Shown here: piece by piece, positions 1,903 to 47,672 of the stretch
Layout: each line of letters opens with the position of its first letter
How positions within the stretch are numbered: the stretch's first letter is position 1
DNA from: Paracoccus albus
GTDB lineage: Bacteria; Pseudomonadota; Alphaproteobacteria; Rhodobacterales; Rhodobacteraceae
Direction: 5' to 3'
Length of the DNA: 64,000 bases
Assembly (NCBI RefSeq): GCF_027913035.1
Contig: NZ_CP115775.1
Coordinates: 372,001-436,000, forward strand
Program-made: the position numbers and the translations under genes
The notes under the pieces: generated by a model
What the model was told of the DNA's origin: nothing
The model's database searches: none
What the model saw: only the letters and a program-made list of their open reading frames with translations

Positions 1903-3138
1903 ATGGATGGTGATATTCGCGTCAATACTTATGACGACGGTTCGCGCGACGCGCTCACCGAAGAACAGGCGATCCGCAACTTCAATCTGAACTTCGGTCC
2001 TCAGCATCCGGCCGCGCATGGTGTGCTGCGCCTTGTCGTCGAGCTTGACGGTGAGGTTGTCGAGCGCTGCGATCCGCATATCGGGCTGCTGCATCGCGGC
2101 ACCGAAAAGCTTATGGAATCGCGCACTTACCTGCAAAACCTTCCGTATTTTGACCGTCTGGACTATTCGTCACCGCAAAATCAGGAACATGCCTGGTGCC
2201 TCGCCATCGAGAAACTGACCGGGATTGAGGCGACGCCGCGCGCCAAGATTATCCGTGTGCTGTTCTGTGAAATCGGGCGGATTCTGAACCACCTGCTGGG
2301 GATTACGACAGGGGCGCTTGATATCGGTGCGCTGACGCCGCCGCTTTGGGGCTTCAAGGCGCGGGAAGAGCTGATGGTCTTCTGCGAGCGTGCTTCCGGC
2401 GCCCGTCTTCATATGGCCTATTACCGGCCCGGTGGCGTTCACGCGGACCTGCCGCCCGAACTGATCGACGATATCGAAGCATGGTGTGAGACTTTCCCGG
2501 CGCTTGTCGACGATCTCAACACGCTTCTGACCGAAAACCGTATCGTTAAACAGCGACTGGTCGATATCGGCGTCGTCACAGAGGAGGACGCGCTGAACTG
2601 GGGATACACCGGGGTGATGGTTCGCGGTTCGGGCCTCGCATGGGACCTGCGCAAATCGCAGCCCTATGACGGGTATGAGGAATATGATTTCCAGATTCCC
2701 GTTGGTAAGAACGGCGACTGCTATGACCGTTATCTGGTCCGCATGGCGGAGATGCGCGAATCCGTCAAGATCATGAAGCAGGCCTGCGAAAAGCTGCGCA
2801 AAACGCCGGGCGATGTTCTGGCGCGCGGTAAGCTGGCCCCGCCGAAGCGGGCGGCGATGAAAACGGATATGGAAAGCCTGATTCATCACTTCAAGCTGTA
2901 TACCGAAGGCTTCAAGGTCCCTGCCGGAGAGGTTTATGCCGCGGTGGAAGCGCCTAAGGGCGAGTTTGGCGTCTATCTGGTGTCGGATGGAACGAACAAA
3001 CCCTATCGGGCCAAGCTGCGTGCGCCGGGCTTTGCGCATCTTCAGTCGATGGACTGGATGGCGACCGGACATATGCTGTCGGACATTCCGGCCTTCATCG
3101 CGACGCTTGATATCGTCTTCGGTGAGGTGGACAGATGA
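1903..3138 (+). CDS. nuoD: NADH-quinone oxidoreductase subunit D
   Basis: NuoD (49-kDa, Nqo4) forms most of the quinone-binding cavity of complex I and descends from the large subunit of NiFe hydrogenase. It has 411 residues, a normal length. The signature around [14 protein letters not shown] (about residues 58-72), the catalytic-cavity segment [13 protein letters not shown] near the N-terminus and the C-terminal end in DIVFGEVDR are all visible. The ATG at 1903 follows nuoC by 3 bases. Its stop codon overlaps the start of a small lipoprotein gene. Confidence 0.97.
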
Positions 3139-3372: not shown

Positions 3373-4518
3373 ATGCTTCGCCGCCTCAGCCCTCTCCAGC
3401 CGGACTCATTCGAGTTTACGCCAGCCAACCTCGAATGGGCGCGGGCGCAGATGACCAAATACCCTGAAGGCCGCCAGCAATCGGCGGTCATTCCGGTGCT
3501 GTGGCGGGCGCAGGAACAGGAGGGGTGGCTGACGCGTCCGGCAATCGAATACTGCGCGAAGCTGCTGGACATGGCGTATATCCGCGTCCTGGAGGTCGCG
3601 ACTTTTTACTTCATGTTCCAGCTTCAACCCGTTGGTACTGTTGCGCATATCCAGATTTGCGGAACGACCACCTGCATGATTTGCGGTTCGGGTGAACTGA
3701 TCGCGGTTTGCAAGGAAAAAATCGCGCCTCAGCCCCATATGCTGTCCGAAGATGGCAAGTTTTCGTGGGAGGAGGTCGAATGCCTTGCTGCCTGCGCGAA
3801 TGCGCCGATGGCGCAGATCGGCAAGGATTATTACGAGGATCTTACGCCCGAAAAGCTGGCCCAACTGATTGATGCGATGGCGGCGGGTAAGGTCCCGGTT
3901 CCGGGCCCGCAGGATGGGCGGTTTTCGTCCGAGCCGGCAGAGGATCAGAGTGCGCTGACCAACCTGGTACCGGCGCAAGAACAGAACAATGCCTCGGTCG
4001 CTCTCGCCTTGGATCTGAAGGACACGCTCAAGCGTATTGACGGCAGCGAAGTGCCCGTGCTGACGCCTTGGCTTCGCAAGCCTGAAGGTGCTGCAGACGA
4101 CCGCAGCGGGAACAACATCCAGTCAGAGGACGAACCCCGCCCCGCCGAGGGGCAGCCGGTCGATGAAACCGGTGTGACAGAACAGGAAGCGGCGGTGAAA
4201 CCCGCCGCAGAGCCCGAAGCCGACGCGCCCGCCGGGTCATCCGATGCTGAGCCGATCGGACGCCAGCCGGTGAAGCTCGAGGCCCCGCGCGAAGGTTCGG
4301 CAGACGATCTCAAGCGGATCTCCGGCGTCGGGCCGGTTCTGGAAGAACTGCTCCACTCGCTGGGTATTTACCACTTCGATCAGATATCGAACTGGGATGA
4401 TGAAGAAATCGCGTGGGTCGACGAAAACCTTGAAGGATTCAAGGGACGCGTCAGCCGTGACGAATGGGTCCGGCAGGCAAGGGAATTTGTCAAGGAAAGT
4501 GACGGCAAGACCAGCTAG
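3373..4518 (+). CDS. nuoE: NADH-quinone oxidoreductase subunit E with a C-terminal helix-hairpin-helix-like extension
   Basis: NuoE (24-kDa, Nqo2) is a thioredoxin-fold subunit holding the 2Fe-2S cluster N1a beside NuoF. Ligands C96, C101, C137 and C141 are in [12 protein letters not shown] and [10 protein letters not shown]. Residues 1 to about 235 correspond to the whole of the standard ~240-residue protein. A Glu/Ala/Pro-rich linker (about 236-305) and a compact domain (about 309-372; [17 protein letters not shown], then WVRQAREF) follow, giving 381 residues. The extra domain resembles the H3TH/helix-hairpin-helix domain assigned to COG3743, and a copy closes the next gene. The role of the extension is unknown; such long NuoE forms occur in Rhodobacterales. 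Confidence 0.95.
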
Positions 4519-45824: not shown

Positions 45825-45859
45825 TCGCCCTTATTTCCACGCCTGCGCAGAAATGAAAA

Positions 45860-45929
45860 GCGGCGACGCCCAGGGAGGAGGAGGGGCGCCGCCGCGACAA
45901 CGCTGGCCCAGGGAGGAGGAGGGGCCGCG
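45860..45929 (-). ncRNA. CcsR/cuckoo-like sRNA unit 5, ending in a terminator-like hairpin
   Basis: Hairpins 45901-45929 and 45860-45895 are five bases apart. The last stem (12 bp, one mismatch, G/C-rich) is followed on the minus strand by TTTTCATTTC, so this sRNA hairpin can also serve as the Rho-independent terminator of the whole DUF1127-sRNA transcript before rlmJ. Confidence 0.7.
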
Positions 45930-45936
45930 TATAACT

Positions 45937-46005
45937 GCGACACAGGCAGGGAGGAGGACGCCCGCGTCGCGCACACGAACCCAGGGAGGAGAAGGGGGTC
46001 CGCGT
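45937..46005 (-). ncRNA. CcsR/cuckoo-like sRNA unit 4
   Basis: Hairpins 45973-46005 and 45937-45970 pair through several G-U pairs (GCGACACAGGC with GCCCGCGTCGC), two bases apart. The leader CCTATACGCGG is nearly repeated before unit 5 (GTTATACGCGG). Confidence 0.68.
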
Positions 46006-46011
46006 ATAGGA

Positions 46012-46082
46012 AGCGACACAGACAGGGAGGAGAGGCCCGTATCGCTGACGTCACACCCTCGGGAGGAGGTGAGGGCTGACGT
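46012..46082 (-). ncRNA. CcsR/cuckoo-like sRNA unit 3
   Basis: Hairpins 46048-46082 (ACGTCACACCCTC with GAGGGCTGACGT, one bulge) and 46012-46046 (AGCGA/TCGCT base, imperfect above) are one base apart. UAAGAAUA precedes the unit, as before unit 1. The second stem is the weakest of the array. Confidence 0.65.
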
Positions 46083-46091
46083 ATTCTTACT

Positions 46092-46167
46092 AGCGGCGCC
46101 CCCGCAGGGAGGAGGAGGGCGTGGGCGCCGCTGTCACCACAAGGCTAAGGGAGGAGGTATAGCCTTG
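46092..46167 (-). ncRNA. CcsR/cuckoo-like sRNA unit 2
   Basis: Hairpins 46140-46167 (perfect CAAGGCTA/TAGCCTTG) and 46092-46132 (perfect AGCGGCGCCC/GGGCGCCGCT) are separated by 7 bases; both loops carry CUCCUCCC. Twelve bases separate it from unit 1. Confidence 0.72.
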
Positions 46168-46179
46168 TCGTATCTGGTC

Positions 46180-46250
46180 GGCGGCACCTCCAGGGAGGAG
46201 GAGGGGAGGTGCCGCCTAAACCCGGACCCAGGGAGGAGGGAGGGTCGGGT
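46180..46250 (-). ncRNA. CcsR/cuckoo-like sRNA unit 1 (nearest DUF1127)
   Basis: Hairpins 46220-46250 (ACCCGGACCC pairs with GGGTCGGGT, one bulge) and 46180-46216 (perfect 12-bp stem GGCGGCACCTCC) are 3 bases apart. It starts 10 bases after the DUF1127 stop, so it must be cut from the DUF1127 transcript. A UAAGAAUAGAAUA stretch precedes it. Confidence 0.75.
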
Positions 46251-46259
46251 ATTCTATTC

Positions 46260-46484
46260 TTACTTGCCCCAGGCCGCTTCGCTAGCGATCCGGGTGATCA
46301 TGCTGCGGTGGATGCCCAGGTCATCCAGTTCGCGTGCCGACAGGCTGGACAGTTCGGAAACGGTCTGGCGATAAACGGCGCGACGGGCGCGGGCTTCCTG
46401 CAGACGAGCAAACAGGCCCATGATGCCAGTTCCGGCGGCCCGTTCGTTGTGGGCGGTGTGGGTAAGAGTGTTCGTTGCAGCCAT
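46260..46484 (-). CDS. DUF1127 small protein (CcaF1-like)
   Basis: This 74-residue basic protein ends with the DUF1127 motif (RRAVYRQTVSELSSLSARELDDLGIHRS, quoted as RRAVYRQTVSELSSL and SARELDDLGIHRS). In Rhodobacter sphaeroides the DUF1127 protein CcaF1 is an RNA-binding protein encoded upstream of, and co-transcribed with, the CcsR sRNAs, and it influences their maturation. The same order here supports that role. ATG 46484 has GAAG nine bases upstream; an in-frame ATG at 46493 is possible. The stop lies 10 bases before the first hairpin. Confidence 0.88.
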   Translation of the reverse strand: MAATNTLTHTAHNERAAGTGIMGLFARLQEARARRAVYRQTVSELSSLSARELDDLGIHRSMITRIASEAAWGK

Positions 46485-46548
46485 TGTTTTCATCTTCGTC
46501 TATATCGGTTCGTATTCACGGTGCGGCGTATCCGCGCCGTTGGGATGA

Positions 46549-46576
46549 AGATGGACCCAATGCTGCGCTTGCACAA
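46549..46576 (-). promoter_or_regulatory. candidate heat-shock-sigma (RpoH-type) promoter of DUF1127 and the sRNA array
   Basis: On the minus strand TTGTGC (576-571) is followed after 16 bases by CCATCT (554-549), close to the CTTG / CCATNT pattern of RpoH promoters. The start site would be about 57 bases before the DUF1127 ATG. The Rhodobacter ccaF1-ccsR locus is reported as RpoHI/RpoHII-dependent, which makes this a fair guess. Confidence 0.35.
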
Positions 46577-47086
46577 CGTCCAATACCTCAATGCTGCCAT
46601 GCAGCAATTGCAATGCATCTCTGGGTTGTGCCGCTAATGTGACGGATTCGTTAAAGGAATTCTGATCACGCCGCCGTTATCGCGTGTCGTTTTCTCTGAA
46701 AACAGGCGTTTTTGTTCTCGGCCCGGATTGCTCATATTGCTGAATTCTGCGCTATCGCGGCAACGGTTCCGAGTGACGCTGCGTCACCAAACTCACTCAC
46801 CGTTCCGGCGAAATAATCTTATTTGCAGACCAGTTTTCTTTGCAGCCTGCTATGCGGGGCAACAGGACCGCTTTGTTGGGTGGAGAACAGGCGGCGCGAG
46901 ACGTGCTCAATGGCTGAATAGGATGCCAGTATCATGCGTTGTCTCGCGCGAGGGCTTTGGCGTCGTGACTGCACATCATGCAAACAGCTATGCGTACGCA
47001 TCGCAATAGCCCTGCTGACTGTAAATCTGGAAATCCGGTGTTCTCGCCGCGTTCCCAATCGGTCGAAAGCCGACCGAGACTCCGGC
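46577..47086 (+). other. non-coding stretch between DUF1127 and the mraZ leader
   Basis: No gene is supported in these 510 bases; open frames are short, Arg/Cys-rich and lack ribosome sites. A perfect 7-bp hairpin (TCGGTCG/CGACCGA) is at 47059-47077, and a small one (GCTGC/GCAGC) at 46593-46605. The region is less G+C-rich than genes around it and may hold further promoters or a small RNA. Confidence 0.5.
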
Positions 47087-47101
47087 TGGGAAAACGTGGG
47101 A
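47087..47101 (+). promoter_or_regulatory. MraZ-box-like repeat 1 (two TGGGA units)
   Basis: TGGGA-AAACG-TGGGA: two identical pentamers with a 5-base spacer, the spacing described for MraZ operators (TGGGN repeats, 10-bp period). A third unit would fall on TTGTC (47107-47111), which does not match. Confidence 0.35.
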
Positions 47102-47115
47102 ACGGGTTGTCCGAT

Positions 47116-47153
47116 GCCCGAATCACCGAGCCGTGACCTGTCGTGATTCGGGC
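47116..47153 (+). other. 11-bp perfect inverted repeat upstream of mraZ
   Basis: GCCCGAATCAC (47116-47126) pairs exactly with GTGATTCGGGC (47143-47153) across 16 bases. It is long enough to be an operator or an RNA stem. There is no T-run after it. Confidence 0.5.
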
Positions 47154-47200
47154 GGTTCTGCCCTGCTCAGGTGGGAAGATCGGCGTCTTTGTCAGCCTCG

Positions 47201-47240
47201 TCTGGAAATTTTTGGGATTTTCCGGGATTTCGTTTGGCAA
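47201..47240 (+). promoter_or_regulatory. MraZ-box-like repeat 2 at 10-bp spacing beside a promoter
   Basis: Four consecutive 10-mers carry GG at fixed or nearly fixed phase: TCTGGAAATT, TTTGGGATTT, TCCGGGATTT, then CGTTTGGCAA. The middle two have the TGGGN/CGGGN core with 5-base spacing expected for an MraZ operator, and they abut the TTGGCA element of the putative mraZ promoter. Confidence 0.45.
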
Positions 47241-47263
47241 GATCTAAAAACACTACATATTGT
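47234..47263 (+). promoter_or_regulatory. candidate promoter of the mraZ (dcw) leader, overlapping an AT-rich inverted repeat
   Basis: TTGGCA (47234-47239) and TATTGT (47258-47263) are 18 bases apart, suggesting transcription from about 47270 and a leader near 400 bases. The same DNA forms an inverted repeat: AGATC and AACACTA at 47240-47255 match TAGTGTT and GATCT at 47273-47285. Confidence 0.4.
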
Positions 47264-47269
47264 GTAAAA

Positions 47270-47672
47270 TTATAGTGTTTGATCTAGGACTGCTGCAGAT
47301 CGGACATGCGAATTTTTATGTTCTCGAATTGTTCACGGTCAATCACGAATGCTCACGCGGCGCCGGTCCACTCTTTTCCATTGCGTCCCATAAATTCCCA
47401 TGCCATCAAAGAAGCACGGAGACGGGCTAAAAGGGCGATCAAGACCCTGAAGGCGATAGCAGGCTTCATACAGGCACCCGCTTCCGAAAACGACGGTCCC
47501 AAATGTGCGAGCAGCACCTCCCCCAAGGTGGCACCAGGGACCGCCCCGCCAACGAGCGGGACCCAGAGATGGGAACGAGGGCGGCGGATCGGGCAGTGGC
47601 AGCGGCCCGGTCCGCCTTTCTTTTCCGGAGACGCCGGAAAGGAAGGGACAGGATCGAAGGAAGGGCCCGCCG
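47270..47672 (+). ncRNA. long structured mraZ leader, possible UpsM-like sRNA
   Basis: The stretch before mraZ has no supported gene but many stems: GGTCCC/GGGACC (495-500 with 537-542) enclosing CACCT/AGGTG (515-519 with 526-530), CCCGC/GCGGG (545-549 with 556-560), CCCA/TGGG (562-573) and a long stem at 47615-47646 whose right arm (GGAAAGGAAGG) lies just before the ribosome site. In Rhodobacter sphaeroides an extended leader of the dcw cluster yields the abundant sRNA UpsM. Position and structure agree; sequence homology was not tested. Confidence 0.4.

Follow-up and report, generated by a model that had tools for sequence, protein, structure and literature searches.

The window, as we call the whole stretch of 64,000 nucleotides of the Paracoccus albus genome that was analysed, contains on its minus strand, between 45860 and 46250, ten hairpins with CUCCUCCC loops. 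They are sited between a DUF1127 gene and rlmJ, with the first hairpin starting 9 bases past the DUF1127 ORF and the array ending 35 bases short of rlmJ. Read along the minus strand, the features of the locus are the following.

46589..46613, minus strand: putative LysR-type (VtlR/LsrB-like) operator, a T-N11-A dyad at 46599-46613 overlapping TGCATGGCAGCATTG at 46589-46603, with 14/15 bases in agreement with the VtlR motif
46548..46576, minus strand: core promoter candidate TTGTGC-N17-CATCTT, conserved and aligned in 69 genus loci
46260..46493, minus strand: gene for a CcaF1-like DUF1127 protein of 77 aa, with 46484 as an alternative possible start (Pfam PF06568, E 5e-13)
46220..46250, minus strand: hairpin 1 (unit 1), predicted fold; no pair varies in nine loci
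46180..46216, minus strand: hairpin 2 (unit 1), fold and alignment; CcsR1 match 46176-46254, 47.1 bits
46135..46172, minus strand: hairpin 3 (unit 2), 8/12 pairs with both sides changed
46092..46132, minus strand: hairpin 4 (unit 2), alignment; CcsR1 match 46088-46174, 38.2 bits
46048..46082, minus strand: hairpin 5 (unit 3), predicted fold and alignment
46012..46046, minus strand: hairpin 6 (unit 3), alignment; CcsR1 match 46008-46086, 30.4 bits
45972..46006, minus strand: hairpin 7 (unit 4), weakest single fold (12/200) and lowest share of paired cells among the ten (79%)
45937..45970, minus strand: hairpin 8 (unit 4), alignment; CcsR1 match 45932-46010, 33.2 bits
45900..45930, minus strand: hairpin 9 (unit 5), predicted fold and alignment
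45860..45895, minus strand: hairpin 10 (unit 5), with TTTTCATTT after it; CcsR1 match 45855-45935, 43.6 bits
45051..45824, minus strand: rlmJ, the downstream neighbour (Pfam PF04378, E 2e-47)

The first-pass annotation, made from the letters alone, had described ten minus-strand hairpins here beside a DUF1127 gene; the Pfam match confirms the gene, and motif count, predicted fold and folding energy bear out the hairpins. When both strands of the window were searched, 10 of the 11 CTCCTCCC motifs fell on the minus strand of the array region (the eleventh, at 3767, is antisense within ORF 3373-4518), against a mean of 2.2 and a maximum of 6 in 100 shuffles of the window. The predicted fold places every motif in the loop of a hairpin whose stem has 9 to 15 pairs. 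The minus-strand stretch folds at -199.7 kcal/mol versus -143.1 +/- 5.6 for 100 shuffles (z -10.0), and since the plus strand of the region reaches a z of -2.6, the minus strand is the likelier RNA. In flank shuffles run for each hairpin, the folding was equalled or bettered in 0-12 of 200 trials, the second weakest single fold being hairpin 1 (6/200). Genome-wide, the spaced pair CTCCTCCCN20-50CTCCTCCC occurs nine times in the array and once on contig C4, with two matches for the backwards control. Two details of the earlier description stood in part: the common loop sequence holds for CUCCUCCC (10/10), but the full CCUCCUCCC is present in 8/10, and the stems are paired but not all unrelated, with a common 3' arm in hairpins 6 and 8 and a common 5' arm in hairpins 7 and 9. 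Judging from the sequence, hairpin 10 likely doubles as the terminator of the array. A T-rich tail (4 or more T among 8 bases) follows the last hairpin in 56 of the 77 genus loci described below and 10/700 of the other hairpins, and a scan for short-loop terminators reported merely a fragment of hairpin 10.

The stems change in a way that preserves pairing. We aligned nine ten-hairpin Paracoccus loci, namely that of the window and those of eight selected relatives. Both sides are altered in 27 of the 116 stem pairs, and 93.5% of the pair cells are standard pairs; with partners slid by 1-3 columns, standard pairs drop to 37.6-42.4% and double-changed pairs to at most 8, a comparison biased in favour of the window's own fold, which served as the reference structure. 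Shuffled controls reached the observed value in 0/500 cases for four measures and in 37/500 for the remaining one, which counts further pair types. The double-changed pairs thus support the earlier proposal that selection acts on structure. Of these pairs, 25 of the 27 fall within hairpins 3-8, and over the same nine loci hairpin 1 is invariant, two pairs vary in hairpin 2, one pair departs in hairpin 9 and four pairs of hairpin 10 vary on one side only, so the ends of the array are conserved and its middle is fluid. The plus-strand ORFs that run across the region could speak for a DNA repeat with no role as RNA, or for a functional plus strand (which carries GGGAGGAGG), but the difference in folding between the strands, the compensatory changes, and a promoter-like element and terminator-like end that both stand in the minus sense make this highly improbable.

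Each of the five units gives an in-register match to the Rfam model CcsR1 (RF02791), on hairpins 1-2, 3-4, 5-6, 7-8 and 9-10, at 47.1 to 30.4 bits, which supports the grouping in pairs. Running the covariance model had been suggested together with the outcome that would count against the array, scores no better than chance, and the E values of 3e-10 to 3e-5 are not of that kind. All five matches are under the gathering cut-off (best 47.1 versus 65.3 bits). That cut-off is passed in 1/101 genus genomes and 7/199 family genomes, and by a lone unit, at 106 bits, in Cereibacter johrii, which we take to be a close relative of Rhodobacter sphaeroides; the cut-off therefore picks out the close relatives of CcsR1 and not the whole family. 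The C. johrii locus, our positive control, has a 71-aa DUF1127 protein and the expected eight hairpins; its CcsR units 3 and 4 (L299 2940-3125) are nearly identical, flanks included, as if by a recent tandem duplication. Among 14 control genomes, the CcsR1 search found a match in one, under the cut-off. The alpha-r14 model (RF02344) scores 52.0 bits on the window versus a cut-off of 58.8, with a match that covers hairpins 2-4 and thereby parts of two adjacent units, and membership in that family (three hairpins, a gene of their own and a score over the cut-off) does not describe the array. What we found are two-hairpin units with CCUCCUCCC-type loops in variable stems and a short DUF1127 gene linked upstream on the same strand, as in the CcsR/cuckoo RNAs to which the first-pass annotation had assigned the array. 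We consider it a genuine five-unit member of the CcsR (cuckoo) RNA family and a CIN1-type locus.

Published work on this family is quoted here from partial texts of the papers. In R. sphaeroides, an RpoHI/HII promoter reportedly drives co-transcription of the 71-aa ccaF1 and four CcsR RNAs (PMC10253847), RNase E and CcaF1 are reported to process the CcsR RNAs, and CIN1 locus is the name given to the linkage of DUF1127 and CcsR (PMC10253847; PMC8625941). Loops of this kind in variable stems were named anti-SD in 2011 (PMC3927594, in the text available).

CcsR1 matches (E <= 0.001) are present in 99/101 Paracoccus genomes, P. albus included, and in 170/199 family genomes, sampled at nearly one genome per genus. 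To count hairpins we used 77 genus loci, the window and one each from 76 further genomes (of 98 others with a match), among the matches listed, leaving out copies of the window (L001-L005), the C4 locus (L006 and L084) and a second copy in one genome (L078). The count requires the exact 8-base motif; a relaxed counter fused neighbouring hairpins and was dropped. Loci carry 3 to 17 hairpins, ten in 18, twelve in 13, eight in 12 and fourteen in 10 of them, and the number is even in 56/77. The comparison of copy number across Paracoccus that had been suggested shows an ordinary array: it is expanded, as claimed, with respect to the four units reported for R. sphaeroides, but ten is the commonest number within the genus, and this is a normal Paracoccus CcsR locus. 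Synteny is strong, with rlmJ downstream in 77/77 loci and a DUF1127 gene upstream in 67 of 76 testable ones (L064, truncated by the end of its contig, is left out). On the rlmJ tree, two sister pairs, L048/L023 and L014/L017, differ by 8 versus 16 hairpins, and a hairpin number this fluid within one genus makes dosage testable. One genome holds the DUF1127-array stretch twice (L077 and L078, on G089:C1 and C2), the second time on the smaller contig with a short piece of rlmJ.

The DUF1127 protein of the window shares 60% identity with its counterpart in L085, where CcsR1 scores 106 bits. In nine genus loci no DUF1127 gene was found by tblastn at 1e-4 and by reading the upstream frames, and there the promoter core stands 51-88 bases ahead of the first loop, versus roughly 340 otherwise. 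On the rlmJ tree of 76 loci this absence needs two losses. The larger clade without the gene comprises eight loci with 3, 3, 3, 3, 3, 3, 5 and 7 hairpins, and the second loss is a single locus with eight; short arrays in one of two DUF1127-losing lineages are one event and not a statistic. For one of these loci (G043), the single DUF1127 match of the genome lies elsewhere.

Upstream of the operon, 69 genus loci could be aligned (the 8 others had no fit to the search pattern) and share a conserved block, ~AGCcATGCnnTTnCTGCATrGCAGCAT, then TTGTGCAnnnGCAGCA...CCATCTT. The core resembles the RpoHI/HII pattern (-35 TTG / -12 TAT) given in a figure legend of PMC10673084, and a sigma-70 promoter scan gave no match here. 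Ahead of this core, TGCATGGCAGCATTG is the reverse complement, in 14/15 bases, of the Brucella VtlR-binding motif CAATGCAGCCATGCA as it appears in the accessible part of PMC12595884, a post hoc match, since we came upon the motif in seeking to explain the element. With respect to the published consensus GCAT-N3-TG-N3-T, quoted from partial text, one of the seven fixed bases is missed (T to A) in GCATGGCAGCATT. A motif of at least 12/15 is present in 48/76 genus loci (shuffles 4/380, opposite orientation 3/76), in 27/30 family loci, the best 30 by CcsR1 score (shuffles 1/150, opposite orientation 2/30), and in 71/77 array-linked named loci (shuffles 1/77), which come from the best 80 of 412 DUF1127 relatives, 79 of them array-linked and 2 of these too short upstream to score. 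The three sets overlap and share ancestry, so the shuffles show conservation and are not independent evidence for VtlR. The motif falls under 12/15 in 28/76 genus loci, including every one of the eight in the larger clade without DUF1127. The dyad ATGC-N7-GCAT, which is a T-N11-A box, stands in exact form 37-38 bases ahead of the core in 44/77, 21/30 and 53/78 loci, and anywhere in shuffles in 9/1850; the window has TTGC in place of ATGC. The box centre lies 48 bases ahead of the end of the putative -10, which would place it at about -55 to -60 if transcription starts some ten bases past that element. The LsrB sites of S. meliloti are given, in partial texts, as -72 to -57 of NfeR1 (PMC10746234) and -61 to -49 of AbcR1 (PMC8844928).

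The box has 17 matches genome-wide, against 3 for its reversed control, and the sole exact one is the array operon; C1:2298413, near the LysR gene beside trxB, and C1:2300168, inside the trxB match, are one-mismatch matches among the 17. The only other DUF1127 match of P. albus (C1:1736820-1736930; L138 ~2300-2610, minus strand) codes for 59 aa and has no array; its box has one mismatch to the search pattern, with a similar core by eye. The box as a general trait of DUF1127 genes was rejected, as a match with at most two mismatches was found within 520 nt upstream in only 8/31 loci, namely 4/4 with six or more CTCCTCCC downstream and 4/27 others (L131, which is this second P. albus gene, L155, L158 and L167); controls gave 8/620 shuffles and 3/124 flank stretches. 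By sequence, the promoter link is conserved, and in this 31-locus DUF1127 sample it was found mostly at array-linked operons.

On contig C4 (83 kb; L084, G000:C4:70000-78500), at ~4232-4342 on the plus strand, there is a stand-alone candidate for a two-hairpin CcsR/alpha-r14-like RNA, with 57.4 bits, just under the 58.8 cut-off. It has the promoter core of the array operon 50 bases ahead of its first loop and no exact dyad, and no DUF1127 gene was found beside it. The array operon is divergent from mraZ, the start of the dcw cluster (window 46500-47505). As the UpsM RNA of R. sphaeroides comes from the dcw 5' UTR (PMC8625941, in the part available), a UpsM-like RNA may, by analogy, lie within 46500-47505.

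A regulator of the VtlR/LsrB type was sought through gene order. A LysR gene follows trxB on the same strand in 6/8 genomes outside the family (58-72% mutual identity) and in 0/9 Rhodobacteraceae trxB loci. A profile built from four of the six trxB-linked proteins has one match in the P. albus genome (G000), C1:553000-553875, at 349.8 bits. This candidate has the LysR helix-turn-helix and substrate domain (Pfam) and is 47-49% identical overall to the four profile proteins, with a nearly identical DNA-reading region: the segment LSQSAVSRQI is identical in three of the four and LFHRHARGLILTEQGELL in two. We call it VtlR/LsrB-like because of the trxB-vtlR gene order that the accessible text of PMC7486931 describes. 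The LysR gene beside trxB in P. albus (L137:2674-3579) was rejected as VtlR, being 26-29% identical to the trxB-linked LysR proteins of other orders, and its best match in family genome G269 reaches 33%; C1:553000-553875 is the better candidate. A clear best profile match is present in 20/20 chosen family genomes with CcsR (P. albus included) and in 19/20 without; second matches passing E 1e-45 score 156-186 bits. Because the protein is also found in 19/20 genomes without a CcsR1 match, co-occurrence lends no support. No paper naming CcsR together with LsrB or VtlR, or Paracoccus with 'small RNA' and CcsR, was found in a search that most subscription papers fall outside of, and a term search in the available part of the P. 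denitrificans sRNA paper (PMC5107571) returned nothing on the array locus.

PhaR-type proteins recognize CTGC-N3/4-GCAG-like sites. The element contains CTGC-ATG-GCAG, so the CcsR dyad could be bound by another regulator, for example of PhaR type, or be only part of an RpoH-type promoter; the text available to us attributes the R. sphaeroides operon to an RpoHI/HII promoter and mentions no LysR protein. The 15-mer match to VtlR and the T-N11-A dyad upstream of the core, 37-38 nt off in loci with both, fit a LysR activator, and we find the PhaR-type or RpoH-only explanation rather unlikely. That a VtlR/LsrB-group regulator acts at this operon is, from the sequence evidence, an even call.

We assume that the locus would work as one operon, the DUF1127 gene with five tandem CcsR RNAs in its 3' UTR. 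A LysR activator of the VtlR/LsrB group would bind the dyad at 46589-46613, RNA polymerase would start just downstream of 46548, and the transcript would end at hairpin 10. Cuts between the units, made by RNase E with the assistance of the DUF1127 protein in the way described for R. sphaeroides, would release five two-hairpin RNAs of ~80 nt, each offering two anti-Shine-Dalgarno loops to the ribosome sites of mRNAs and so reducing translation. We infer the action of the loops by analogy with NfeR1 of S. meliloti, an LsrB-activated RNA with three such loops; in the portion of PMC10746234 available, NfeR1 silences mRNAs by base-pairing through redundant loops with the loop motif of the array. 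We put the probability of a CcsR operon with this general working at roughly 0.8.

The exact 9-base complement in front of ATG starts (GGGAGGAGGN3-10ATG) occurs at four sites of the genome. Three were discounted, one inside ORF 3373-4518, one antisense to the C4 RNA and one that starts no ORF of at least 80 aa. The fourth starts the gene of an MFS transporter (L115 1503, minus strand; G000:C1:107141-107157), with GGGAGGAGG, the exact complement of CCUCCUCCC, as its ribosome site; being the only clear ribosome site among the exact matches, it is the best single predicted target. The few exact targets, together with middle stems that vary while loops are kept and an array length of 3-17 hairpins, could also mean that the main role of the hairpins is a cis-acting one or that of a protein or RNA sponge (binding DUF1127 protein or Hfq), with copy number as capacity and mRNA targeting secondary. 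We see this as unlikely, as NfeR1, with an equal loop motif, is reported to silence mRNAs by base-pairing.

Activation of CcsR operons by a VtlR/LsrB-type regulator via the conserved dyad may be family-wide in the Rhodobacteraceae, and the rhizobial AbcR/NfeR1 RNAs and the CcsR arrays may be branches of one ancient module joining a regulator to anti-SD RNAs, with array length tuned by tandem duplication and possibly shrinking upon DUF1127 loss. The chances that this whole reading is right seem about balanced; the occurrence of the regulator where CcsR is absent and the post hoc nature of the motif match count against it. The array itself is of an already-known kind, and the part that may be new is the promoter link. 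If the dyad is a VtlR/LsrB operator, it would link two stress-RNA circuits so far studied separately and provide CcsR with a named regulator, testable in standard laboratory strains.

Compared with known systems, the locus is similar to the VtlR/LsrB regulon of Rhizobiales in its operator (14/15 bases), and the targets there, according to partial texts, are AbcR sRNAs and small DUF1127 genes; unlike there, nine Rhodobacteraceae trxB loci have no VtlR-type gene within about 1.5 kb of trxB. The alpha-r14/NfeR1 RNA of Sinorhizobium (RF02344) has an equal loop motif in unrelated stems and a LysR-type LsrB site upstream, but has three hairpins, its own promoter and NtrC repression, and the available description mentions no DUF1127 gene. 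Cereibacter has the promoter element of the window; in C. johrii a separate terminator-like hairpin, identified by eye, lies past the array, whereas in the window the last hairpin itself looks like the terminator. Finally, CcsR1-4/ccaF1 of R. sphaeroides differs in having four units against five, with the window's Rfam scores under the cut-off, and, as far as its partial description goes, shares the whole arrangement of a DUF1127 gene followed, in one operon, by tandem two-hairpin RNAs with CCUCCUCCC loops.
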